This document shows, piece after piece, positions 38,272 through 50,595 of a stretch of 64,000 nucleotides of DNA. Below the pieces are notes generated by a model. It had not been told where the DNA came from, did not search any database, and saw nothing but the letters and a program-made list of their open reading frames with translations. Source of the DNA: an uncultured Prevotella sp. (GTDB taxonomy: Bacteria; Bacteroidota; Bacteroidia; Bacteroidales; Bacteroidaceae); the NCBI GenBank assembly GCA_905233825.1, contig CAJOFE010000005.1, positions 34,992 to 98,991 of the forward strand, read 5' to 3'. Made by a program: the position numbers and the translations under genes. Each line of letters begins with the position of its first letter. Within the stretch, counting starts at the first letter, position 1.

Positions 38272-39261
38272 TTAGATGTTCTCCACCCCACAATAAGGAC
38301 AGCGGCCCTTGCTATGCAGATGACGGCCACAATGCCCGCAAATATACTTGGCACGACTATAACGGAAGTAGCGCCAAAGAGCAAACACAACATAGGCACA
38401 GAACAGAGGATAGCCGATATAATAAAGGGTGGAGACGCTCAGCACGACATATACTACCGAGCAAACGGCAGCAAGGCCGAGGATATAGAGCAAGGACTGA
38501 CCTGTAGAAAGACGACGGCGGATGTCGTCGAAAGCGGCAATGCCCACAATGAAAATGGCCCAGACGGAGAAGAGGAACATGCCCAGATGCAAGGGTACGG
38601 AGAAGGGGTTGAGCGTGGGGTGATAATAGAAATGGCGCCACGACTCGGGATTGAGCAACTGGATAGTGCTGTAGAACACTGCCGATGCTGCCACCAACAG
38701 CGTAAGCAAGGTGGGATAGAAGGAGTCGATGTCGCGAAAATGCACGATGTGGGCATTATGGCGATAGAGACGGTTGACAATGAACAAAGCCATACACAGC
38801 ACGACAATGCCCAGCATGATGAGCAGATGGGTGTCGGAGAAGAAATCGATAAAACGGGAGATGACATTATCCGGCGACACACGTTCGAGCATGTCTTTCT
38901 CGTGAACCCACCCCATCGTAAGCTGGTCGCGAGCCACCTGCACCCATACAGAATCGACTGTATCGACTGGCAATGTAACGATGTCAGCCACTACAAGACG
39001 ATCTTCTTTCTGCACAGTGATGGTATCGACCAGCATGCCGCTGACGGCTTCGGAAGGCTGCTGGACAATGAGTTGCAGGCTATCGCCAGTGACCACGAAG
39101 TTGTAGTTCTGCGAATAATGATGCGTGGTGTAGAAAGAGACGGAATCCACCTGCTCCTCAGTAGGAATCCAGCCGTCGGGTGTAGGCGACTCCTGACGGT
39201 AGCACCCTTGCAGCAGGATGACCACACACATTATTATATATATACAAGACTTACTACGCAT
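38272..39261 (-). CDS. Membrane lipoprotein with C-terminal zinc ribbon
   Basis: A 329-residue protein with a lipobox (VVILLQGC), an extracytoplasmic domain of about 120 residues, four to five membrane helices, and a terminal zinc ribbon (CGHC...CPYC). I do not recognise the family. It ends the long minus-strand run that begins with the kinase module, and its start overlaps the U32 stop by 8 bp. The zinc ribbon echoes those of the signalling proteins upstream. The ATG of MRSKSC was chosen over a TTG two codons earlier. Confidence 0.65.
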   Translation of the reverse strand: MRSKSCIYIIMCVVILLQGCYRQESPTPDGWIPTEEQVDSVSFYTTHHYSQNYNFVVTGDSLQLIVQQPSEAVSGMLVDTITVQKEDRLVVADIVTLPVDTVDSVWVQVARDQLTMGWVHEKDMLERVSPDNVISRFIDFFSDTHLLIMLGIVVLCMALFIVNRLYRHNAHIVHFRDIDSFYPTLLTLLVAASAVFYSTIQLLNPESWRHFYYHPTLNPFSVPLHLGMFLFSVWAIFIVGIAAFDDIRRRLSTGQSLLYILGLAAVCSVVYVVLSVSTLYYIGYPLFCAYVVFALWRYFRYSRAKYICGHCGRHLHSKGRCPYCGVENI

Positions 39262-40999
39262 CGGCAAGAACGTTCATCTGACAATGACCACAATCAAACT
39301 GCAAACGGAAACGACGTCCGTCAGCCAAACGAAGAAAGAGAGGTTCGCGCCATTGAGGCTTGCGGCCTCCGCGTCGCTCGCAGAATCCTAATTCATAGCG
39401 TAGGCAGTAGCGGCATTGCATTAAAGTATTACCTTTGTCAAGTTTGATGTTGGAAGGTGAAATTTGGATGTGTCGCTTCGCGAGGTTGAAGGTTGAGGGT
39501 GGAAGTACATAGTTCTTCTTTACGTCCTCCTTCCTACTTCCTACATTCTCCTTCTCTACTGCCATCCTTCTCAATGATGACAACTGACTACTGGGTATGA
39601 AATAGTTGAAGTCATCGGGAATATCGACAGAAGTACACTCATAGGGGGTATCACCCAAACGGGTAAGCTGACGAATGATATTGTCACGCTGAGAAGTGCG
39701 AGCCTCCTGATGCTCTTGACAAATGGAGACTTCGGTTGTACCCATCCGAAGGACAAACCCGTCAGCAGAGGCATGAAGGCTCATGGTAACAGGAATCTTA
39801 CGAACTGCACTCTGGCGACTCAGCGTTCGCTCCATAGCCTCGTCGTTGCTACGGTAGAGCAACGTTCCAGGAACAAGACCAGCAGGCACCGTCTGAGGGA
39901 AGAGACGATTACCCTCTGCCCTATTGACACGGAAGCCTCGCAGCTCGCGGCCATCGAAGAAGCACAAACCGTCGCCATTGACAAAGGAGGCTGTACCAGC
40001 CACAACAAGCGAGGGACCTCGCAGTTCTTTTACTATACCCACACATTGCCCGATAGCTTTAGGAGTATCGAAAGAGGCCATCGAAGACTGACGGCCATCC
40101 ACAAAGTATGTGGTATAGCCGCGATTGAAAGTACGGTCAAGGTCTGGCTGGAAGGTGTAACGGGAACGGCCACGCGATGCTCGTTGATACTGACCAGGAT
40201 GACTAACAATATACCTGTCGAGTAACTGGCTGTAGGCCGCTGTTACGTTCTTCACGTAGGAAACATCTTTCAGCCGACCTTCTATCTTGAATGAAGTAGC
40301 TCCTGCCTCTATGAGACGTCCGAGATGAGCACTAAGATTCAGGTCTTTCAACGAAAGCAGATGACGCTGATGCTCGAGTTCCCGCCCGTCGGCATCGAGA
40401 AGGTCGAACTTCATACGACAGAACTGAGCACACTCTCCTCGATTGGCACTTCGATGAAAACAATGCTCAGAGGCATAGCACAAGCCTGAGTAGCTGACGC
40501 AGAGAGCTCCATGCACAAAGACTTCCAATTCCATCTGAGGCACCTGCCAATGAATAGCGGTAATCTCTTCGATAGAGAGCTCGCGTGCCAACACTGCCCG
40601 TTGGAATCCATGCTGATGCAACCATTCTACTTTCTCTGCCGTGCGGTTATCGGCCTGTGTAGAAGCGTGAAGCACAAGAGGAAGATCCTTTGCCATAGAC
40701 AAGAGCTGCATGTCCTGCACCAGCACGGCATCGACGGAGATGTCTGCCAACTGGCGCAGCAATTGACGTACATCTTCTATTTCGTCCTCATAAATCAGGG
40801 TGTTGACGGTGACAAAGACGCGTGCATCAAACTGATGGGCATAACGACAAAGGGCATCTATGTCATCAATGCTATTGCCTGCGGCTGCCCTGGCCCCAAA
40901 GCGGGGCGCACCAATATAGACGGCATCGGCTCCATGATCGATGGCAGCGATGCCCGTCTGCAGATTCTTTGCAGGAGCAAGCAATTCTAACGATGTCAT
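39254..40999 (-). CDS. U32 family protein, RlhA-like
   Basis: A 581-residue U32 protein: ELLAPAKN at the start, HGALCVSYSGLCY and the cysteine cluster around RGECAQFCR in the middle, then a DUF3656-like region. This architecture resembles E. coli RlhA, which is needed for a 23S rRNA cytidine hydroxylation; older annotations say peptidase or collagenase. A block of about 35 residues near position 485-520 (LPPSTFNLAKRHIQISPSNI) looks repeat-derived. A cysteine-rich tail follows. The start overlaps the metA stop (ATGA). Confidence 0.82.
   Translation of the reverse strand: MTSLELLAPAKNLQTGIAAIDHGADAVYIGAPRFGARAAAGNSIDDIDALCRYAHQFDARVFVTVNTLIYEDEIEDVRQLLRQLADISVDAVLVQDMQLLSMAKDLPLVLHASTQADNRTAEKVEWLHQHGFQRAVLARELSIEEITAIHWQVPQMELEVFVHGALCVSYSGLCYASEHCFHRSANRGECAQFCRMKFDLLDADGRELEHQRHLLSLKDLNLSAHLGRLIEAGATSFKIEGRLKDVSYVKNVTAAYSQLLDRYIVSHPGQYQRASRGRSRYTFQPDLDRTFNRGYTTYFVDGRQSSMASFDTPKAIGQCVGIVKELRGPSLVVAGTASFVNGDGLCFFDGRELRGFRVNRAEGNRLFPQTVPAGLVPGTLLYRSNDEAMERTLSRQSAVRKIPVTMSLHASADGFVLRMGTTEVSICQEHQEARTSQRDNIIRQLTRLGDTPYECTSVDIPDDFNYFIPSSQLSSLRRMAVEKENVGSRKEDVKKNYVLPPSTFNLAKRHIQISPSNIKLDKGNTLMQCRYCLRYELGFCERRGGRKPQWREPLFLRLADGRRFRLQFDCGHCQMNVLADA
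39434..39572. repeat. Composite simple repeat and mini-hairpin inside the U32 gene
   Basis: The tract runs AAGTTTGATGTTGGAAGGTG, then a TCGC-TTC-GCGA hairpin (39473-39483), then GGTTGAAGGTTGAGGGTGG and CCTTCCTACTTCCTAC. It has the same makeup as the intergenic block at 13031-13240, yet it is open in the gene's frame. Confidence 0.65.
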
Positions 41000-41913
41000 C
41001 CTATCTTATTGATGTCGTAAGGTGTTTCCTGGTAGACGTAGTAGTTCACCCAATTATTATAGAACAAGTTTGCATGAGCACGCCACGAAACAACTGGCGG
41101 TAGCGAGGGGTCTTCATTCTTATAATAGTTGATGGGTTTCTCTACATCAGAACGTACGCCCGCATCGCGGCGATATTCATTGTCGAGCGTATTAGGGGCA
41201 TACTCTAAATGGCCCGTGATGAAGAATTCACGACCGCCACGAGCCATCACGATGCTCACACCACTCTGCTCAGACTCTGCAATGAGGTTCAGCTCTGCAT
41301 GCTGTTCAATATCAGCACGCCTGACCTCAGTGTGACGACTATGGGGCATCATAAAGGTATCATCGAAGCCCCGGAAGATAGGAAGCTGAGTGTCGAGCGT
41401 ATGCTGAGGGAAGATACCGAACATCTTCTTCTCCAACGGATACTTGGGAACGCCATAATAGTGATAGAGTCCAGCCTGAGCAGCCCAGCATATAAAGAGC
41501 GTACTGGTGACATGTGTCCTTGCCCAATCAAAGATGCCGACGATTTCTTCCCAGTAGCTCACCTGTTCATAGTCCATTGTCTCAATGGGAGCACCCGTAA
41601 TAATCATTCCGTCGAACTTCTCGTTCTTCATGTCGGCGAAATCGCGATAGAACATCATCATGTGCTCAATGGGCGTGTTCTTCGGCGTATGGCTGCGCAG
41701 TTTCATAAAGCTGATGTCAATCTGCAGCGGCGTATTGGAAAGCAAGCGCACAAGATCAGTCTCCGTCGTAATCTTCAGAGGCATCAAGTTCAAGATAACA
41801 ATGCGCAACGGGCGGATGTCCTGAGCATGTGCCCTGGAATTGGCCATCACGAAGATATTCTCTTTCTTGAGAATATCAATGGCCGGCAATCGATCTGGTA
41901 AACGTAAAGGCAT
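40996..41913 (-). CDS. metAA: MetA-family homoserine O-acyltransferase, probably O-acetyltransferase
   Basis: A 305-residue enzyme of methionine synthesis. The nucleophile is Cys142 in FICWAAQAGLYHYYG, and the active-site His lies in MPHSRHTE. Residue 111 is Glu (GAPIETMDY). Known MetA enzymes with Glu111 use acetyl-CoA, while E. coli with Gly111 uses succinyl-CoA, so this one is predicted to make O-acetylhomoserine. It lies 23 bp downstream of the PP2C gene on the same strand, an unusual partner. Confidence 0.93.
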   Translation of the reverse strand: MPLRLPDRLPAIDILKKENIFVMANSRAHAQDIRPLRIVILNLMPLKITTETDLVRLLSNTPLQIDISFMKLRSHTPKNTPIEHMMMFYRDFADMKNEKFDGMIITGAPIETMDYEQVSYWEEIVGIFDWARTHVTSTLFICWAAQAGLYHYYGVPKYPLEKKMFGIFPQHTLDTQLPIFRGFDDTFMMPHSRHTEVRRADIEQHAELNLIAESEQSGVSIVMARGGREFFITGHLEYAPNTLDNEYRRDAGVRSDVEKPINYYKNEDPSLPPVVSWRAHANLFYNNWVNYYVYQETPYDINKIG

Positions 41914-41936: not shown

Positions 41937-42680
41937 TCATCCTACCTTGACAATAATAGCCGACACATTGTCGAGACCTCCTGCATCCTCGGCCTTGGCA
42001 CACAACATGTCAGCAGTGTCATCTTCAAGTAATCCGTCTCTTAACTGCTCATCGGAAAGCATGTCTGAAAGGCCGTCGCTACAAAGCAGGAAAGTATCAC
42101 CTGGCTGAATGTCAGCCGTACATTCCACAATATCAATAAAGCTGTTCTTACAGCCTCCGCCTATGCAATTCGTAATAATACTGGAGCGCTCTGTCTCGCC
42201 AAGAAGATTGCTCAGTGAATGATCAGTAGAAAGTTGAGACAACTCGCCATTGTGCAGATGATAGATGCGACTATCGCCGCAGTTCATCCAATAGAACGCA
42301 CCTCCGTAATAAGCCAACACGACCAGTGTCGTTCCCATTTTACTGAAACGCTCGTCGCTCTTTCCCTTTGAATCGATCATGATATTGATGCTGGCTAACC
42401 AATCGTAGATGGCTTCATTGAAATCGGAGATGGAAAGGCCTACGGGCAGATCGGAAAAGAAGAATTGAAGATTATGCAGCACATCATTGCTGGCCACCTC
42501 GCCACTATTATGTCCACCCATACCATCGGCCAAAGCCAACAAGTACCGGTCAATAGACGAGAGGTCTTTGTGTGCACTCATCCTCCCATTGCGCACAAAC
42601 CACTGGTCAACAAGGATCATATCCTCATTATTACTCCTTACGCATCCTGTCTTACTGGATGCGGTTATATTGAATTTCAT
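41937..42680 (-). CDS. PP2C-family Ser/Thr protein phosphatase
   Basis: A 247-residue Mn/Mg-dependent phosphatase. Motifs in order: RSNNEDMILV near residue 15, LADGMGGHNSGE, MGTTLVVL, NCGDSRIY, FLLCSDGLSDML and GGLDNVSAIIV. The metal-binding aspartates are all present, so it is probably active. It is soluble and cytoplasmic. It is the last gene of the signalling module and presumably reverses the kinase encoded three genes upstream (inference). Confidence 0.92.
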   Translation of the reverse strand: MKFNITASSKTGCVRSNNEDMILVDQWFVRNGRMSAHKDLSSIDRYLLALADGMGGHNSGEVASNDVLHNLQFFFSDLPVGLSISDFNEAIYDWLASINIMIDSKGKSDERFSKMGTTLVVLAYYGGAFYWMNCGDSRIYHLHNGELSQLSTDHSLSNLLGETERSSIITNCIGGGCKNSFIDIVECTADIQPGDTFLLCSDGLSDMLSDEQLRDGLLEDDTADMLCAKAEDAGGLDNVSAIIVKVG

Positions 42681-42692
42681 TGCTCCTATTCC

Positions 42693-43271
42693 TTAGCTGA
42701 TGCTAACTTGCAGATTGATGTTTGCTATAGTCAGAATGTCGCCATTCTTCAATGACATATCTGTGTCAGGCTGAAGAAGATGCTCATTGAGCTTTGTTCC
42801 GTTAGACGAGTGCTTGTCAGACACACACCACCCTGAGCCGCTGTTGTATTTTAGTTGTGCATGTACTCCAGAAACATACATGTTCTGCTGGAAGAACTGA
42901 GAATAAGGCCCTTGGCGTCGGCCTATCACAGCCCCGTTCATTCCGATGAAACGAATGTTAAGTGTATCGTTATAGAGCATGAGCTGAGGAATGCCCTGAG
43001 GCATACCCGATGACATACGGACAACTCCACGATTAGTGGCGACAAACTCCTGAGAGACAAATCCTGACGACACCGAGATAGCACCGTGGGAAATGTTTCC
43101 CCGTCGGTTTTGGTAATCATCAGGCGACACCATGAGGCCGCCACAGCTGGTGCAACGACGCCCAATGCCTACACGTCCACATTTCTCACAATATAGCAAT
43201 GCCTGTCCACATTGGTCACAATAGTGAGAATCGTCGTCAATCTCTTCCTTACAGTTTGGACAAATGATCAT
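42693..43271 (-). CDS. Zinc-ribbon and FHA-domain protein
   Basis: A 192-residue protein. The first 45 residues hold a double zinc ribbon (CPNC, CDQC, CEKC, CTSC). A linker follows, then a C-terminal FHA domain (about 95-192) with AVIGRRQGP, the SGVHAQLKY strand and DKHSSNGTKLN. FHA domains bind phosphothreonine peptides, so this is the likely reader of the kinase's marks. It is 12 bp from the PP2C gene. Confidence 0.88.
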   Translation of the reverse strand: MIICPNCKEEIDDDSHYCDQCGQALLYCEKCGRVGIGRRCTSCGGLMVSPDDYQNRRGNISHGAISVSSGFVSQEFVATNRGVVRMSSGMPQGIPQLMLYNDTLNIRFIGMNGAVIGRRQGPYSQFFQQNMYVSGVHAQLKYNSGSGWCVSDKHSSNGTKLNEHLLQPDTDMSLKNGDILTIANINLQVSIS

Positions 43272-43304
43272 ATCTACGTCTACGATATAATATTATACAT
43301 TTTA

Positions 43305-46300
43305 TTATTTAGGTTCAATGATGTCTTCCGGCTGAATGAGCTGATAGGTTTCCTTCGTCACCTGATCAGGCGGCAACTGCGACACTCTCATTGACAGCTG
43401 CTGAACCGTAGCATCAAGCAGATTACGCATCTCACGGGCATTACCGAATGTTTCATCCTTCGTCATCAGCATCCTACAGATGACATCAAGCACCTTGAAC
43501 TCGGCAGTAGGCGAAAGAATGTAGGACTCTTTCTGAGCCATCTTCTTGAAGATAGCCAGAAGTTCGTCTTCGTTATAGTCTTCAATATGCAGTTTATGCG
43601 TAAAGCGACTGGCCAATCCGGCATTGGCCTGCATGAACTCATCCATCTTGTCCTTATAGCCGGCAGCTATGACCACAAACTTACCGCGATCATCCTCCAT
43701 ACGCTTCATCAACGTGTCGATAGCCTCCTTACCGTATTGGTCGTTCTGGTCGGAAAGAGTATAGGCCTCGTCAATGAACAAGATACCCCCCATAGCCTTA
43801 TCGCACATGGAATTGACAATCTTAGGCGTCTCACCCATGTACTTACCTACAAGCGTAGCACGACTGGCCTCTATCACTCTTGACGTTGGCAGGATGTCCA
43901 TAGACTGCAGGATCTCTCCCATCTTACGGGCAATTGATGTCTTACCAGTTCCAGGATTACCCATCAGTACAAAGTTCATCGACAGTTGCTGCACCTTACC
44001 AGCACCCAAAGCCGCACGCTGCTTCATGAACATGCTCTGTACTGCCAGTCGGCGTATGCTATTCTTCACGGAGCGCATACCAATGAAGTCATCCAGCTCA
44101 TTGAGCACCTCATCAAGCGGGCGTACAGCCGTACTCTGAGCAGCAGGCAAGTCTTCAGTAGTCAGCTTGAAGATGTCTTCTTCACTGAATCCTGGCTTAT
44201 TCATCAGCGTCACCAGACGCTGGCTCTGTTTCTCTACGGCTTCGTTGAAGATACGGCGAGCCTCTCGAGCATTGCCGAAGTTCTTGTCGCGCCGCAGATA
44301 AAGTTGCTCAAACTCACGATGAATGGCAGCCTGCGTAGCATCGTCAATAGTAAAGTTCTTTGCAGCGGCCAGATTGAGGAATATCTGCGTCAGCTCGTCA
44401 GGTGTGTAGTCTTCAAAGTGTATTGTCTGCGTGAAGCGGCTCTTCAGACCTGGGTTACTGTCAATGAAATCGTGCATCTGGTCTGTATAACCAGCCACAA
44501 TACATATAAACTTACCGCGGTCGTCTTCCAATCGCTTCAGCAACGTGTCGATAGCCTCGCCACCGAAAGAATCGTTATCACTCGACTTCAACGTGTAAGC
44601 CTCGTCGATGAAGAGTACTCCACCCATAGCCGAGTCTATTAGCTGATTCGTCTTAATAGCCGTCTGGCCGGAGAAACCAGCTACGAGCTTCGAACGGTCA
44701 GCTTCTACAAGCTGTCCTCGGGAAAGGATGCCAAGCGTTTTGAAAACATCGGCCATGATACGTGCCACAGTGGTCTTGCCCGTACCAGGATTACCCGTAA
44801 ACACATAATGCTTACCCTGGAAGGTATTGGTCTCACCACGCTTAATCTGCAGGTTGAGGAATGCGGCAAGATTCGTCACCTCCTTCTTCACACTTTCCAG
44901 ACCGACCATACCCTCGAATTTCTTCAGGCATTCAGTATAATCGACCTCCTTCGGTGCCTCGTAAGGAACATCAGCCGTCTCAATGGTCATCAGTTGCTCA
45001 TTCGACATCTGTGAGATATCACCATTCTGCAGTCGCTTAGCCTGGTTTTTGCAAATCTGGTCGAACAACGAACGCATTGTACGACCATTGGCAAAGTCCT
45101 TGTCACGCTGCTTGTGGAGCTCGGTAATCATCTTCTTCGTCAGCTCTTTGGCCTCGGGTGAGAACATGTATTTCTTTCCCGAAGCAAAGACTTCCATGAT
45201 GCTGAACAGCTCCTCGGGGTTGTAGTCCTCAATATTCAGGAAATAATTGAAGCGGCTGCGCATACCAGGATTGACACGGAAGAGGTTGTCCATCTCCGTG
45301 CGATAGCCAGCAGCGATGACGACGAACTTCCCACGATCGTCCTCCATACGCTTCATCAGCGTCTCCAATGCCTGGGCACCCTGATTGTCGCGTTCACCAG
45401 CCTGACTGAGAGGTGCCAACGTGTAAGCCTCATCAACAAACAGGATACCACCCATTGCCTTGTCGCACAAACGGTTCACCACCTTAGGAGTCTCACCCTG
45501 ATAGGGAGATACCATATGCGAACGATCTACCTCAACAACATGACCGGAATCCAGATAACCGATAGCCGCCAGAATTTCACCCAGCTTTCGGGCGATAGTG
45601 GTCTTACCCGTTCCAGGATTGCCCGTCAGCACGATATGCATAGACAGTTTCTCCTGTTCACCGAGGCCACGTTCCTGACGCTGCAAGCTGTTCTGTACGG
45701 AGAAAGCTATCTCGCGTACGGCCTGCTTCACCTCCGTCATACCAATGAATGAGTCGAGGTCGCTCAGGATGTCTTCAAGCGAGCGCTCTTCGGGCACATA
45801 CCCCTTGATGTCTTCTTTCTCCACTTGCTCCGCATGGGTACCACGACTGATGAAAGAGGTGAAAATGTCCTCTGCGGTCTTCATGGCCAGATGAGCATTA
45901 CCGAATGTCTCGTCCTTAATCTTGATCTGATACTTGAAAAAACGCGTCAGCTGGTGATCAGCTTCTGGCGAGAAATTGCTAAGCCCATATTTGGTACGCA
46001 ATTCCAACTTGGTGATGTCGCACAACTCCTGGAAATTAGGAGTAGGAAGTCGGAAAGTATATTTGAAGCGGTTCTTTACTGCAGGGTTGCTCTCCAAAAA
46101 ATCATCGAGGCCTTTGGGAAGACCAGCCATAATCACAATGGGATTATCGTCCCATTTATCCATTTCGACAAAGAGCTTATCCAGAGGATTCACCTGATTG
46201 GAATACTTGTCAGGCAACAATTTCTGCACATTGTCGAAGAAGAGCAAACCACCACGTGCTTTCTTGATGTTCTCATCCCATTTGTCAACAAAACGCTGGT

Positions 46301-46619
46301 AGTCAACAGCATCAACCATCGTCAGCTTTGGCTTATCAATGATCTTATGATGGAAGAAATAGTCACGGATGATACTCGACAAAGCGGTCTTACCCGTACC
46401 TGTCTCTCCTATAATGATTGCGTTTACCGACAAGCGTACTGTCGAGATGTCCTTACGGGAACGCAGGTAGGTATAAGTATCAACAATGGTCTTCAACTGA
46501 GCCTTGACATCGTCAAGTCCAACCATTTTGTCAAGCGTATTAATCAAAATGGGCTGTCCGCACCACTTACAGTATTTCGCTACGCTTCTGTTCTCCTTAT
46601 GGCAAAATTCACATGTCAT
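43305..46619 (-). CDS. Four-module AAA+ ATPase with N-terminal zinc ribbon (CbbX/SpoVK/EccA-like)
   Basis: An 1104-residue protein. It has one zinc ribbon (residues 3-20: CEFC...CKWC), then four P-loop modules with Walker A at 71-78 (GETGTGKT), 333-340, 609-616 and 887-894 (each GNPGTGKT). Walker B is FVDEAYT/FIDEAYT in modules 2-4 but FFDNVQK in module 1, so module 1 probably binds but does not hydrolyse ATP. Modules 2-4 carry the CbbX-type sensor NFGNARE/FANGRT and arginine segment SRF. This family remodels protein complexes; the target here is unknown. Confidence 0.9.
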   Translation of the reverse strand: MTCEFCHKENRSVAKYCKWCGQPILINTLDKMVGLDDVKAQLKTIVDTYTYLRSRKDISTVRLSVNAIIIGETGTGKTALSSIIRDYFFHHKIIDKPKLTMVDAVDYQRFVDKWDENIKKARGGLLFFDNVQKLLPDKYSNQVNPLDKLFVEMDKWDDNPIVIMAGLPKGLDDFLESNPAVKNRFKYTFRLPTPNFQELCDITKLELRTKYGLSNFSPEADHQLTRFFKYQIKIKDETFGNAHLAMKTAEDIFTSFISRGTHAEQVEKEDIKGYVPEERSLEDILSDLDSFIGMTEVKQAVREIAFSVQNSLQRQERGLGEQEKLSMHIVLTGNPGTGKTTIARKLGEILAAIGYLDSGHVVEVDRSHMVSPYQGETPKVVNRLCDKAMGGILFVDEAYTLAPLSQAGERDNQGAQALETLMKRMEDDRGKFVVIAAGYRTEMDNLFRVNPGMRSRFNYFLNIEDYNPEELFSIMEVFASGKKYMFSPEAKELTKKMITELHKQRDKDFANGRTMRSLFDQICKNQAKRLQNGDISQMSNEQLMTIETADVPYEAPKEVDYTECLKKFEGMVGLESVKKEVTNLAAFLNLQIKRGETNTFQGKHYVFTGNPGTGKTTVARIMADVFKTLGILSRGQLVEADRSKLVAGFSGQTAIKTNQLIDSAMGGVLFIDEAYTLKSSDNDSFGGEAIDTLLKRLEDDRGKFICIVAGYTDQMHDFIDSNPGLKSRFTQTIHFEDYTPDELTQIFLNLAAAKNFTIDDATQAAIHREFEQLYLRRDKNFGNAREARRIFNEAVEKQSQRLVTLMNKPGFSEEDIFKLTTEDLPAAQSTAVRPLDEVLNELDDFIGMRSVKNSIRRLAVQSMFMKQRAALGAGKVQQLSMNFVLMGNPGTGKTSIARKMGEILQSMDILPTSRVIEASRATLVGKYMGETPKIVNSMCDKAMGGILFIDEAYTLSDQNDQYGKEAIDTLMKRMEDDRGKFVVIAAGYKDKMDEFMQANAGLASRFTHKLHIEDYNEDELLAIFKKMAQKESYILSPTAEFKVLDVICRMLMTKDETFGNAREMRNLLDATVQQLSMRVSQLPPDQVTKETYQLIQPEDIIEPK

Positions 46620-46652
46620 TATTTTGCTTCACTTTATAATAGTGTCAGGTTA

Positions 46653-49595
46653 TCAAGAAAAAGGCAACTTCATGTCAAGAATACTGGAACTGAATATACA
46701 GAATTCAAGCACCATAATGAGAGCAAGCACCGACCAAAGGACATAGTGAACCACTGATTCTCCTGAAAGAGAATTCACCTGGTCACTAACCTCATCGAGC
46801 AAGCCGAATTTCGTACTCTTATATCGTTGCGACTTTGTCTTGAACGTATAATATAGAGGCTCTAATAGCGATGACTTCACGTCGTCGCTTTTCAACACCT
46901 CCTGCATAGTTTCTGAATCCGATACATGATTCTCCTTAAATGCCGTGAAATAGCAGATAAGCATATACACGACGGTGATAGCCACCACCACATAGTTCAG
47001 AATACCGGGGTTGGCAGTTTGTACCTTCGCAATAATAAATATAGGTATTGCGGAAGAGGCGACTCCAAGCACTCCCATTAGCGTGGAGAGCATCGGACCC
47101 ATTCCTTTGAAGTAACATCTGACACCCACAATAATACCCGTCATTCCACCTAATGGCAAACCCATCGACAGGAACTTGTGTTCCATCAGATAACTGCGCC
47201 CTGTAATACCGAATATCAGTACTAACAATATCCAAATTCCACAGAGGGAACAGAAGATATACTTCCACATCTTTTCTTTGGCACGTGCCTTGCTCCATTG
47301 CTTCCTGACGGCAGCCACCCTCGACTTCGTGTCTTCACAAGCCTTTGTGAACCTGCGGTAATAGGGTTGCTGATTATCCAGACGTCCCAAAGCCATAATC
47401 CACTCTTCCAGCTCACGCTCATAGCTATATTCCTCGGCAAACTCACGAGAGGGATCCTCGTGGTAATATACCGACATCCACTGAGCGAGAGCTCCGTTGC
47501 GCAATTCCGAGCGAATGAGCGATGTAAACGAGATGTCAATGCTACGCCCATCATTAAGTATAGTACCATTAGGCAACAGATAGCCGGGCTTGGCACCCAG
47601 GATACGGCAAAAGCGATAGAGCGCCGTACGTAAGTCATACGCGCTCAAACGGTCACGGTTCTCTGGCAATGAGAGGTCGAAGCAGCGTGTGGCCTCATTC
47701 ATAATCTCATACCATCCGTGCAGTTGAGCATAATAATGGAAACGTCCATCCTTATCGGTATATTCCATCATTTGCACGGCAAAATCTTCAGAAGATAGAT
47801 GCTCTGTCTGCATCAGCTGATGTGACAACAAGTCACCAATTTCCGCAGGCTTATAGGCACTACGAAGGTCGTAGGCTGCTTCCCTATCTAAGTTGTACAG
47901 CACCTTATAGCATAACTGACGGGAATAAGGCTGTCCTTGTGTCAAAATACGCAACGACTCACAGGCCATCATGTCTTCATGGGCATACATCCATGAAAGT
48001 AGGCGACCGTCGCACAGTGCCAGCCAATCATCTTCAGAAGGATTGGAATAGCCAAAGGCATGAGTTATCTCCTTAATGGTCGATGACGGATGCCTGGAGA
48101 GGAATGGTATTTCCGAGTCTATCTCATACACCATACGTACCACCGAGGTGTTGGCATCGTTACCCTCCTCGAAATAAGAGCGCAGACGCTGGACGTCACA
48201 CTTTACATGTGTATCAAGCCAGAGGAAGAGAGAATCATTAGGATTCTTCAGTAAGACGGCATAATTCTCCCTGTTGCATAGGAGTGCTAAAGCCACGCTG
48301 TGCACGTCGTCACAAGCATTTCCCTGTATGTCAATATACGGATAAGTGGGATCCATTGTATATAAAGCACACATAAATCCCGCTTTCTTATCTACTGGAT
48401 ATTTGTTGATGACAATATCTTTCAGCAGTTCCGAGAGTTTCGTGTTACCGCTATTCTCTAACCAAGTGATGATACGTCCGTTATAGAGGTAGTTAATGCC
48501 CAGCTTCTCACGTTCGGCAAGCATGGGAACCAATTCATGAACATTGTCAGCCACAAGGTTCTTTTCGGGATCAACAATAAAGCTCTTATAGCGCAGGAAA
48601 GGCGAAGAGAGATCAACAGGAACATCTTCACCGAGGAACCAGCGCTCAACCTGGTCATAACCCCATCTGTTCTGCTGATTCACCGATGTCAGTCCCTGTA
48701 TCAGCCTCTTCACTTTATCGGGAAGCTCACCGAGACGGGGCAACCGTCCTTCACTCTTCTGCTTCATCATGATGCGCTCGTTCGAGCTCATCGGATTCTC
48801 ACCTAACCACGCAGCAAAAAGAGTAATACCCAGCGAATAGTAGTCGGCAGCCTCAGTAATCTCTACCTCTCCGTCTATCACGTCAGTGTACATCTCGGGA
48901 GCGGCATAGATAGGCGTGCGGGCCTGAGTCGTATGGAAGGTGCGGGCATCGCCTTCACGCAAGGCAGAGATGCCGAAATCACCTAGTACCAACTGCTTCT
49001 GCTCGTCATCGCGGAAGAAGAAATTGGTAGGTTTGATATCCTTGTGCAGCACACCGTGAAGATGACAATATGACAGAGCAGCCGCACTTTGCAAAGCAAT
49101 ACGACGAAAACGGTTGAAGTCGCCCTCCAACTTCAGGTCGCGCAACGTTCCTCCGCGCAGATATTCCATCAGCTCATAATAGCGGTGCTTGCCATCAACG
49201 TATGTCTTGCCATAATCGAACAATTCCACAATCATCTCAAACTGGAAGGAACGTACCACCTGCATGAGCTTCTTGTTGATATCGAAGTTGGGATAATAGA
49301 CTTTCAGTACATATTCACTTTCCTCGCCTACTCGCTTTACGAGAAACACCTGTGCCTCGCCTGAGCTTTCACTCAGCGTATTTATGAGTTCATAAGTATC
49401 GCCTTTCAGTACGAATGTCTTGACATCTGTGTTCTCCACCGCCTGAGTTCTGCTATTACCACTTGGGCGTATGGTCGTATCTGCCACGACAGCCTGGTTT
49501 TGCTTTGGCTTGGCATCAATATGCATAGTACTGTCTGGCGCAAACTTCTGTGCCTGGTCAGCAGGTCTGATGGTTGTTAGGTTATCGTCTGCCAT
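46653..49595 (-). CDS. Membrane-anchored Ser/Thr protein kinase
   Basis: A 980-residue protein. A threonine-rich N-tail (with TIRP repeated at about 8-11 and 41-44, plausible phosphosites for the FHA partner) precedes a kinase domain at about 66-310. Lys98 is in VLKVYYP, the catalytic loop HKDIKPTN is at 184-191, DFG at 206-208 and APE at 232-234. A long helical region follows, then about five membrane helices near the C-terminus. All catalytic residues are present. The start MADDNLTT is 4 bp after the upstream stop; longer in-frame starts would overlap that gene. Confidence 0.9.
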   Translation of the reverse strand: MADDNLTTIRPADQAQKFAPDSTMHIDAKPKQNQAVVADTTIRPSGNSRTQAVENTDVKTFVLKGDTYELINTLSESSGEAQVFLVKRVGEESEYVLKVYYPNFDINKKLMQVVRSFQFEMIVELFDYGKTYVDGKHRYYELMEYLRGGTLRDLKLEGDFNRFRRIALQSAAALSYCHLHGVLHKDIKPTNFFFRDDEQKQLVLGDFGISALREGDARTFHTTQARTPIYAAPEMYTDVIDGEVEITEAADYYSLGITLFAAWLGENPMSSNERIMMKQKSEGRLPRLGELPDKVKRLIQGLTSVNQQNRWGYDQVERWFLGEDVPVDLSSPFLRYKSFIVDPEKNLVADNVHELVPMLAEREKLGINYLYNGRIITWLENSGNTKLSELLKDIVINKYPVDKKAGFMCALYTMDPTYPYIDIQGNACDDVHSVALALLCNRENYAVLLKNPNDSLFLWLDTHVKCDVQRLRSYFEEGNDANTSVVRMVYEIDSEIPFLSRHPSSTIKEITHAFGYSNPSEDDWLALCDGRLLSWMYAHEDMMACESLRILTQGQPYSRQLCYKVLYNLDREAAYDLRSAYKPAEIGDLLSHQLMQTEHLSSEDFAVQMMEYTDKDGRFHYYAQLHGWYEIMNEATRCFDLSLPENRDRLSAYDLRTALYRFCRILGAKPGYLLPNGTILNDGRSIDISFTSLIRSELRNGALAQWMSVYYHEDPSREFAEEYSYERELEEWIMALGRLDNQQPYYRRFTKACEDTKSRVAAVRKQWSKARAKEKMWKYIFCSLCGIWILLVLIFGITGRSYLMEHKFLSMGLPLGGMTGIIVGVRCYFKGMGPMLSTLMGVLGVASSAIPIFIIAKVQTANPGILNYVVVAITVVYMLICYFTAFKENHVSDSETMQEVLKSDDVKSSLLEPLYYTFKTKSQRYKSTKFGLLDEVSDQVNSLSGESVVHYVLWSVLALIMVLEFCIFSSSILDMKLPFS

Positions 49596-49599
49596 AGGT

Positions 49600-50517
49600 T
49601 TATTTATCATCTTTAACTTCTTGTGTTGAGGAATGACCCAGAATGACCCATTGTCCGCCCAACTGGGGCTTTGCACATCCGCAAGGACTGGAATGAAGGG
49701 CATTCTTATAGTTACATTTCCATGCTAACCGCACGCCGATAGGCTTCTGTGCCATTGCATAGTTACGAACTTTTGCCGGCGACGGCGAGGCCGGTATGGC
49801 CATCTTGCCGAGGAGTTGCGACAGCTGCTCCAGCTTTCTTTGTTTCTGAATGTCAAGTTCTTCTTTTGATACCCTATGATAGCGGGGCTGAGGAATCTCT
49901 GGCTCAGCCACTCCCTCGTCCTGTGCCAGCAGACGAAACACGCGCTCCCTCAGCTGCAGGCTGGCTTCATCGTTGCTCATATCACTATCACTGGTATAGG
50001 GTAACTGCATCTGCAGCTCGTTGTACTCACGGGCCAGCAACACCAGTTCCTGATAGTCAGGACGCTCACGCAACTGCGCCATCATCTGCTTGGCCTCGTC
50101 TGTCAAAGGCTGCCCACATTGCTTGCAGAAAGCAAAGTCATTCAGCGTGTGACAGGTAGGACAGACAATACCACCACGAGGAGAACCACACTCCGGACAA
50201 TAGGGATCATTTTCATTGAAACGAGCGCCACAGAACGAGCACACATCGGGGCGGATATAATGATGGCAGACCTCACAGAAGTCAGCATCAGGATCCAGCT
50301 CGTTACCACAATTGGGGCAACTTCCCACATGCAATAGTTCACCACACGACGCACAATACTTTGCTTCGGGCTCATTGATGGTACCGCACTTGGGACAAGC
50401 AACACCACTGGCCGTCTTGGCCTGCATCTGCATAGCCTGACGTCCATCTTGAGTCACCTCCAAAGGTCCCATCTCTCGTTGCCGTTCAGCAGGACGTTGT
50501 GTTATTTCGTCAGTCAT
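49600..50517 (-). CDS. Multi-zinc-ribbon protein, first gene of the signalling module
   Basis: A 305-residue soluble protein. Between residues about 41 and 137 it carries four consecutive C-x2-C/C-x2-C ribbon pairs (two double zinc ribbons). A helical middle follows. Near the C-terminus lies a separate cysteine cluster (WKCNYKNALHSSPCGCAKP) that could bind another metal. The function is unknown; it may be a scaffold or adaptor, because three of the other module members also carry zinc ribbons or threonine-rich tails. Its promoter is the only one seen for the whole run. Confidence 0.82.
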   Translation of the reverse strand: MTDEITQRPAERQREMGPLEVTQDGRQAMQMQAKTASGVACPKCGTINEPEAKYCASCGELLHVGSCPNCGNELDPDADFCEVCHHYIRPDVCSFCGARFNENDPYCPECGSPRGGIVCPTCHTLNDFAFCKQCGQPLTDEAKQMMAQLRERPDYQELVLLAREYNELQMQLPYTSDSDMSNDEASLQLRERVFRLLAQDEGVAEPEIPQPRYHRVSKEELDIQKQRKLEQLSQLLGKMAIPASPSPAKVRNYAMAQKPIGVRLAWKCNYKNALHSSPCGCAKPQLGGQWVILGHSSTQEVKDDK

Positions 50518-50546: not shown

Positions 50547-50577
50547 GCAAAGTTACAAAAAGTTTTCTAAAAAGCAA
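50547..50577 (-). promoter_or_regulatory. Promoter of the kinase-AAA-FHA-PP2C run
   Basis: On the minus strand, TAACTTTGC with a TTG exactly 19 bp upstream. The next gene gaps downstream show no comparable box. Confidence 0.82.
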
Positions 50578-50595
50578 ATATCTTTGAAAAAATAT

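Follow-up and report, generated by a model that had tools for sequence, protein, structure and literature searches.

What would a protein kinase, a phosphatase and a phosphothreonine-binding protein control when their genes stand in one row with a multi-module AAA+ ATPase and a zinc-ribbon protein? This question is raised by a five-gene cassette in a stretch of 64,000 nucleotides from an uncultured Prevotella sp. (G000:C5:34992-98991, hereafter the window; the source genome G000 comprises 3.33 Mb). All five open reading frames (ORFs) were found at 41937-50517 on the minus strand, as are all further window features of the cassette and its packed neighbours given below. In the order of transcription, they encode a multi-zinc-ribbon, scaffold-like protein of 305 amino acids (49600..50517), a membrane Ser/Thr kinase of 980 amino acids counted from ATG MADDN (46653..49595), a zinc-ribbon AAA+ protein of 1104 amino acids with four modules of the SpoVK/CbbX/EccA type (43305..46619), a double-zinc-ribbon FHA protein of 192 amino acids (42693..43271) and a PP2C phosphatase of 247 amino acids (41937..42680). 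Pfam finds three double-zinc-ribbon stretches in the scaffold-like protein, which also has a C-terminal Cys cluster, Pkinase in the kinase, four AAA stretches and three AAA_lid_6 in the AAA+ protein, DZR and FHA in the FHA protein and PP2C in the phosphatase; NCBIfam also matches the AAA+ protein and the phosphatase. These identities, with the same outer coordinates, had been given in a preliminary description of the locus, which also proposed that a writer, a reader and an eraser of phosphothreonine are coupled to a remodeller. The sequences point to such a coupling, and we consider it somewhat probable that the five genes form a phosphothreonine switch controlling an AAA+ remodeller of the SpoVK/CbbX/EccA clade.

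Do the five genes stay together in other genomes? A search of genome contigs with the AAA+ protein gave 251 confirmed relatives, of which the best 80 were fetched. Their records are titled Prevotella or Prevotellaceae, plus one Bacteroidales, and many carry rumen or ruminant names. The five genes are complete and in order in 73 of these 80 loci. Four of the seven exceptions lie at contig ends (L056, L058, L080, L091) and three are without PP2C (L053, L057, L101); the contig of L053 additionally ends before the zinc-ribbon gene. The order zinc-ribbon protein, kinase, AAA+, FHA, PP2C recurs beyond the genus, that is, in other genera of the family (L040, L041 and L042, 23-40% identity), in other families of the order (L194, L195) and in two families outside the class (f135 and f153; L230, L231, L233, L234). 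Among named proteins, the closest to the L233 kinase is one from an Ignavibacteriaceae bacterium. The row is interrupted in L194 by a short extra AAA fragment and in L230 by a SUKH gene, and the set of G536 is split over two contigs (L232 and L254).

To compare the distributions of the kinase and the AAA+ protein, we used two profiles derived from loci with both genes, neither of which includes the other protein: A1 covers the kinase C-terminal region alone and A2 the zinc ribbon and module 1 of the AAA+ protein. Among 295 genomes of the order, A1 matches four (G000, G191, G200, G414) and A2 matches the same four (E at most 5.5e-69), the next match (2.5e-38) beginning after the ribbon. Among 395 genomes of the phylum, a sample that shares G000 and a few others with the order sample, A1 matches seven and A2 the same seven (E at most 1.9e-89; next 2.9e-42). 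Weaker A2 matches (E up to 1e-8) to other AAA+ proteins occur in 267/295 and 178/395 genomes. In the samples searched, the kinase and the zinc-ribbon AAA+ protein are confined to exactly the same genomes; under random placement and ignoring kinship, the chance of this coincidence is 3e-9 (295 genomes) and 4e-15 (395 genomes). A sample of the family held orthologues of the four-module AAA+ protein, full-length or contig-split, in 7 of 121 genomes. The preliminary description had suggested collecting AAA+ neighbourhoods and had seen homologues scattered without the other four genes as the outcome that would speak against it; instead, we found conserved order and genome-for-genome co-occurrence. 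Judged from its sequences and gene order, the cassette is a real, conserved and uncommon signalling unit.

Which feature could connect the writer to the reader? In the AlphaFold model, residues 1-57 of the kinase (49425..49595) have a predicted local distance difference test score (pLDDT) <50, which we take as disorder. The tail carries two motifs, L-T-T-I-R-P (49563..49580) and D-T-T-I-R-P (49464..49481), and the N-terminus of the zinc-ribbon protein carries E-I-T-Q-R-P (50491..50508). The tails of relatives are variable save for such repeats, for instance DRTIVADRTIVADKTIVAD (L062), DKTLKPD (L194), SGTQRP (L195) and DKTVRA (L231). The repeats follow [DE]-x-T-[ILMV]-[RK]-P or D-K-T-[VI]-R, with Thr only, and are about 30 times above shuffles. 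For the counts, L043-L052 were set aside here and in the residue comparisons below; 81 of 90 kinase frames yielded a tail, and with L194-L196 added by hand the set came to 84 tails. In these 84 tails, T.[RK]P occurs 127 times vs 4.1 in shuffled tails (maximum 11 of 500 shuffles), whereas the Ser version occurs 4 times vs 2.8 and the reversed motif 0 times vs 4.2. The N-terminal tails of the zinc-ribbon protein contain 46 sites vs 1.2 shuffled, spread over 40 of 86 tails. Tested singly, 25 of 30 tails are enriched in T.[RK] (p <0.05); these comprise 12 loci and 18 database proteins, some of them near-identical (P0135 and P0098 are not among the 18). Furthermore, the FHA C-termini of the Ignavibacteria-type loci end in the same pattern: EKTIRV (L230), DKTVRI (L231), DATVRV (L233), EKTVRI (L234) and DKTIRL (L254).

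In G586, G540, G731 and G536, the only places with at least two motif-pattern hits within 500 bases are kinase tails, and G200 has its sole cluster there too. Across five Ignavibacteria-type genomes, no second cluster was found besides the kinase tail; their motif-pattern totals are similar to those of the reversed control, and one of them, G686, is without a cluster. In the source genome, the pattern has 6 hits vs 7 reversed. The kinase contributes one of its two sites; a long peptidase-like ORF (L137) contains one further hit, in frame and unrepeated, and four lie in frames of 16-95 codons. With the hits no more frequent than those of the reversed pattern, the idea that further proteins of the source genome carry the motif was rejected. 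The pattern did not suit G414, where it caught one tail site.

FHA readers select Thr over Ser, and Thr rather than Ser in the motif is what an FHA reader would demand. The tail motif, a sequence clue absent from the preliminary description, would support a phosphothreonine switch. An alternative is that the motifs serve kinase autoregulation, or are a docking site for another protein, and that the FHA protein reads an unrelated phosphothreonine on the client. There is a precedent in the T6SS (type VI secretion system), where, according to the available part of PMC3953482, Fha reads phosphothreonine of TssL, a machine part. Against this alternative, which we regard as unlikely, a Thr-only, direction-specific motif is common to the kinase tail, the scaffold tail and the FHA C-terminus of one lineage, and it is absent where the FHA protein is absent (L184, n=1).

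For the phosphothreonine switch, the residues that such proteins need are conserved. The kinase domain (residues about 60-320, 48636..49418; Pfam, AlphaFold model and fold search) keeps the K, the catalytic D, the N and the D of DFG in 88/88 aligned sequences. The FHA protein has the phosphothreonine-binding residues; their pattern (R, S, H, N) is matched in 71/89 sequences, one with W for N, and inspection of the 18 unmatched sequences by eye found IGR, S, H and N in every one. In the PP2C phosphatase, the metal-ligand positions are present and kept in 84-85 of 85 sequences. Cys 67-134 of the scaffold-like protein are kept in 89/89 sequences and Cys 41-58 in 82/89. A frameshift in the zinc-ribbon gene was considered and rejected, as its odd C-terminus is conserved.

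The kinase probably starts at ATG 49595 rather than in the longer frame from 49703. Its kinase domain is followed by an all-helical domain (model residues about 340-740, 47376..48578), which is part of the profile that finds distant relatives. All 50 matches listed in the fold search with the kinase model are kinases, and among them the helical domain has no assigned relative. The C-terminus (46677..47258) contains four strongly hydrophobic segments, and the model helix 807-829 may be a fifth. After these segments, L195 has a fused bacterial SH3 domain (SH3_3 in Pfam), and unassigned extensions are seen by eye in L040, L041, L042, L194 and L230 (the one of L194 has no Pfam match). Membrane genes adjoin the cassette in L041, L042 and L184; one L184 gene matches SH3_3 and the L042 gene has no Pfam match. 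An extracytoplasmic cue for the kinase is plausible. In the window, orf331 (38272..39267), downstream of the cassette, has a similar layout, with an N-terminal hydrophobic segment, a beta-containing domain that is at best weakly SH3-like, hydrophobic helices and C-terminal CxxC pairs. A fold search with orf331 gave nothing at E 0.001 and only weak matches, including SH3 and tudor folds. Homology of orf331 to the membrane genes found in L041, L042 and L184 was rejected, as hhalign detects none.

What kind of machine would the switch control? The AAA+ protein exceeds the NCBIfam cut-offs of three clade members (SpoVK 785 bits vs 423, EccA 709 vs 467, CbbX 654 vs 459, for the whole protein and summed over modules), and a structure search matches CbbX (3syk) and EccA1 (9lur, E 5.1e-49). 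Its N-terminal zinc ribbon (residues 1-24, 46548..46619) has Cys 3, 6, 17 and 20 invariant in 9 aligned sequences. Four modules follow, assigned from motifs and a module tree: module 1 (45750..46532), module 2 of type A (44955..45749), module 3 of type B (44136..44954) and module 4 of type A (43308..44135). Modules 2-4 have Walker A, the DE of Walker B, the GY signature and the arginine-finger position. The ribbon and the four modules had been recognised in the preliminary description; not all four are alike, as module 1 is without the Walker B glutamate. It keeps Walker A and has no GY (AGL at sensor 1, where modules 2-4 have AGY), and is predicted not to hydrolyse ATP. At the glutamate position, module 1 has N in 88 of 90 aligned sequences, S in one and a gap in one; L041 and L042, which a length filter placed outside the 90, have D there, not N. 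In L196, the DE of module 1 is kept and Walker A is altered.

In a tree of 59 modules, module 1 forms its own group (support 100/99), and the rest fall into types A and B, with B at 82/100 and A as one group in 85% of bootstraps; the three modules of the ribbon-less AAA+ protein of L184 were present in an earlier tree and left out of this one. The chains read 1-A-B-A in the window, L033, L036 and L095, 1-B-A-B in L040, L194 and L195, 1-B-A in L041 and L184b, and 1-A-B-A-B in L230 and L231. By its sequence, the AAA+ chain consists of one degenerate module and 2-5 others, which belong to two types and mostly alternate. The alternation occurs in both phases, which suggests that the adjacency of A and B matters, and A and B modules may form an alternating ring. 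The longest chain lies at L254:51-5186 (G536:C139), where a six-module AAA+ protein in an open frame of 1712 codons could in principle hold a whole hexamer. Three AAA+ orthologues have one in-frame stop (G075:C2:29834-33133, G138:C71:32445-35744, G145:C34:71650-74943), which may reflect a pseudogene or an assembly error. A different system occurs in four genomes of the family, where a CbbX-type AAA+ protein of about 1100 amino acids (L197-L200) is preceded by conserved genes of about 138, 200 and 502 amino acids.

The variant loci offer a natural comparison. L184 (G157:C26), a second locus in G157, encodes two AAA+ proteins, a zinc-ribbon protein and a diverged kinase-like protein, together with two membrane proteins with N-terminal SH3-type regions (one with the SH3_3 match) and a pentapeptide-repeat protein. 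The kinase-like protein has HGD and GDYDS for HRD and DFG and a gap at the APE position, and its Pkinase score of 26.8 bits is under the cut-off of 31.7. FHA, PP2C and the tail motif are absent. Divergence of the writer thus goes along with the joint absence of reader, eraser and tag, and the AAA+ protein and the scaffold are retained (n=1). Other variants concern the surroundings: SUKH (SMI1/KNR4) and DUF1963 genes lie in or after three distant cassettes (L230:8289-9080, L234:10445-10963, L194:17931-18572) and could encode adaptor or immunity-type proteins.

Taken as a phosphothreonine switch, the cassette would work as follows. The membrane kinase would phosphorylate the [DE]-x-T-[ILMV]-[RK] motifs of two substrates, its own tail, which is predicted to be disordered, and the scaffold with its zinc ribbons. 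These phosphothreonines would be the docking sites of the zinc-ribbon FHA protein and would be dephosphorylated by the PP2C phosphatase. The docked complex may recruit or gate the AAA+ protein via the shared zinc ribbons, and the AAA+ protein would likely remodel one dedicated client, probably at the cell envelope. A bolder version, which we offer tentatively, as possible and on the doubtful side, is a Bacteroidota-wide, undescribed system: a receptor kinase with tandem copies of its own FHA-docking barcode (D-K-T-[VI]-R) would act via an FHA-zinc-ribbon reader to switch on a single-chain AAA+ protein, in which a hydrolysis-dead regulatory module and alternating A/B modules of the SpoVK clade (3 to 6 modules per chain in all) make a covalently concatenated hetero-ring.

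Several observations weigh against the proposed switch. T.[RK]P is barely enriched in the FHA linkers (4 sites in 75 linkers vs 0.8, with a shuffle maximum of 4). Five tails (L042, L184, P0134, P0136, P0137) are not significant singly, and L036 has no T.[RK] site of the listed kind despite the presence of FHA and PP2C. The tails come from related sequences and the summed motif counts are not independent. PP2C is absent although the FHA gene is kept in L034, L053, L057 and L101; for L101, this applies to the 1.5 kb that remain of the contig. No PP2C remnant turned up in these four loci in a translated search that had L033 as its positive control, and the eraser seems to be the most dispensable part of the cassette. 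The alternation of modules is broken in 3 of 11 chains, namely 1-A-B-B (L233), 1-A-B-B-B (L234) and 1-A-B-A-A-B (L254). The kinase-like protein of L184 keeps the aligned K, D, N and D, and its loss of activity is uncertain. Lastly, membrane anchoring, SH3-type neighbours and the precedent of the clade are the whole basis for a putative client at the envelope, and orf331 and the membrane genes beside the distant loci are not detectably homologous.

How far does the transcription unit extend? The promoter consensus of the Bacteroidetes type, TTTG-N19-TAACTTTG, is matched perfectly at 50548..50578, 30 bases before the first gene; the preliminary description had placed this single promoter one base off, at 50547-50577. 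In a pattern scan, the minus strand between this promoter and orf331 contains no further perfect site. The promoter lies back to back with an opposite-strand promoter that precedes a relA/spoT gene. The window holds 11 perfect promoter sites vs 0.24 expected; the eleven perfect TTTG-N19-21-TANNTTTG sites span 5583-53690 and include three divergent pairs, 16-17 bases apart, at 22.5, 33.9 and 50.6 kb. Downstream of PP2C follow, packed and in the same direction, metA of the homoserine O-succinyltransferase family (40996..41913), a U32 peptidase family gene (39254..40999) and orf331. The gaps from the zinc-ribbon gene to orf331 are 4, 33, 33, 12, 23, -4 and -14 bases. Because the gaps stay small through to orf331, the packed unit is one of eight genes, headed by the cassette, and not of five as had been described.

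The cassette might then serve these packed neighbours, and the eight-gene block, with its gaps of up to 33 bases, is indeed complete in 64 of the 80 fetched loci, the remainder mostly on loci cut short. We nevertheless hold this to be very improbable. In a sample of the genus, orf331 occurs in 55/60 genomes (33/33 of the good ones) and the AAA+ gene in 20/60 (10/33 of the good ones), with both on one contig in 19 of the 20 AAA+-positive genomes. Of the 40 AAA+-free genomes, 19 were examined at orf331; metA-U32-orf331 stands there without the cassette in 17 and U32-orf331 in 2. In the blocks examined of the distant loci, metA was not seen. Since the three genes also occur in cassette-free loci and the distant blocks examined showed no metA, metA is more likely a landing site than a partner, and a metabolic coupling to metA was rejected on the 17 of 19 cassette-free loci. 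On a tree of orf331 (41 rows, 15 with the cassette, from the 55 genomes with a match), the cassette label changes 4 times vs a shuffled mean of 12.3. One gain and three losses would account for this number, and of the three rows with a loss two are incomplete genomes. This suggests that one clade either acquired the cassette upstream of metA or kept it there.

Such patchy presence, in 20/60 genomes of the genus and 4/295 of the order, would also fit the signalling half of a conflict (defence) system related to TerY-P or MADS, with the AAA+ protein as a disaggregase or effector loader. SUKH and DUF1963 families include immunity proteins, and genes of these families flank or sit in three distant loci. 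In PADLOC, the kinase has mad6 as its best match (114.9 bits) and the AAA+ protein has a match to mad8, likewise of MADS (63.1 bits). Furthermore, in the accessible sections of PMC11090510, TerY-P pairs a kinase-zinc ribbon with PP2C, and some CoCoNuT loci carry tandem AAA+ proteins of the SpoVK type as an extension. We nevertheless think a defence role decidedly unlikely. The kinase reaches 88 bits with the NCBIfam MAD6 model vs a cut-off of 460, and PADLOC gives AAA and kinase matches only, with none for PP2C, FHA or the zinc-ribbon protein. The history within the genus fits gain and loss at one site, and a mobile element was rejected, as the kinase C-terminal region has no plasmid or phage match. 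The preliminary description had noted that vWA, Ter and secretion genes are absent and had named membership of a known secretion or defence locus as an outcome against it; reading the listed ORFs of the relatives' blocks by eye, with Pfam on a few proteins, we saw no vWA, Ter, secretion, nuclease or toxin gene.

We return to the phosphothreonine switch and its meaning. Bacterial kinase-PP2C-FHA switches are best known in secretion systems or mycobacterial regulation. Here, such a switch would be tied to an AAA+ clade whose few studied members each serve one enzyme or machine: SpoVK activates MurG, CbbX acts on Rubisco and EccA on the type VII secretion system (T7SS), as stated in the available text of PMC10659427. 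The tail barcode would be a concrete, cheap handle on the readout of the switch and a route to its client, and the chains of 3-6 modules would offer a natural series for work on concatenated AAA+ rings. Our literature search found no description of the gene set. An operon figure of the SpoVK clade in PMC10659427, with a zinc-binding label, may draw it, and the accessible text of that source mentions no kinase or FHA. The cassette is a combination of known families with a tail motif for which we found no report.

How does the cassette compare with known systems? The threonine phosphorylation pathway of the T6SS comprises the kinase PpkA, the PP2C phosphatase PppA and Fha. For the T6SS, the accessible part of PMC3953482 describes a kinase and an FHA phosphothreonine reader as a post-translational switch on a machine. 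By this logic, the cassette could regulate a machine for secretion or surface assembly whose genes lie elsewhere, in the way that PpkA/PppA/Fha regulate the T6SS and EccA serves the T7SS, and the match to EccA1 fits as well. However, no T6SS gene is found by Pfam among nine window proteins scanned, no secretion gene was seen in the blocks examined (the genomes elsewhere were not searched for them), and the FHA protein scores 29.9 bits with the TagH model, far under the cut-off of 120, so that it is not of the TagH type. We consider such a role improbable. Unlike the T6SS pathway, the cassette also combines an AAA+ protein of the SpoVK/CbbX/EccA clade, zinc ribbons on the FHA protein and repeated Thr motifs on the kinase.

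The TerY-P triads (TerY vWA, PP2C and kinase-zinc ribbon) likewise hold a kinase, PP2C and a zinc ribbon in one operon, and tandem SpoVK-type AAA+ proteins occur in some TerY-P-associated loci, as far as the available portion of PMC11090510 goes. In contrast, the cassette has no vWA (no Pfam match among the nine window proteins, and none seen by eye in the relatives' ORFs), its core includes FHA and a multi-module AAA+ protein, and its zinc ribbons sit on the AAA+ protein, the FHA protein and the scaffold and not on the kinase, whose C-terminus consists of hydrophobic segments without a zinc-ribbon match and so differs from the TerY-P-type fusion. From MADS (mad6 kinase, mad8 ATPase), the cassette is separated by the low MAD6 score of its kinase.

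ArnA, an archaeal zinc finger-FHA protein, binds a partner (ArnB) phosphorylated by the kinases ArnC/ArnD; the Arn partner is a vWA protein, and the accessible part of PMC6509490 mentions no AAA+ for Arn. With the SpoVK/CbbX/EccA clade, the AAA+ protein shares scores above the NCBIfam cut-offs and, in modules 2-4, the GY signature at sensor 1, a feature of the clade in the available text of PMC10659427. It differs from that clade in its 3-6 concatenated modules with a degenerate first one, its N-terminal zinc ribbon and its phospho-signalling operon. SpoVK is a protein of sporulating Firmicutes with a short N-terminal domain (PMC10659427, available text), whereas the AAA+ protein of the cassette has four modules, a zinc ribbon and relatives in Prevotellaceae. 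EccA has a TPR N-terminus and a T7SS neighbourhood, in contrast to the zinc-ribbon N-terminus and the neighbours metA, U32 and relA/spoT found here. By the sequence features tested, the cassette is set apart from T6SS, T7SS, MADS and TerY-P.

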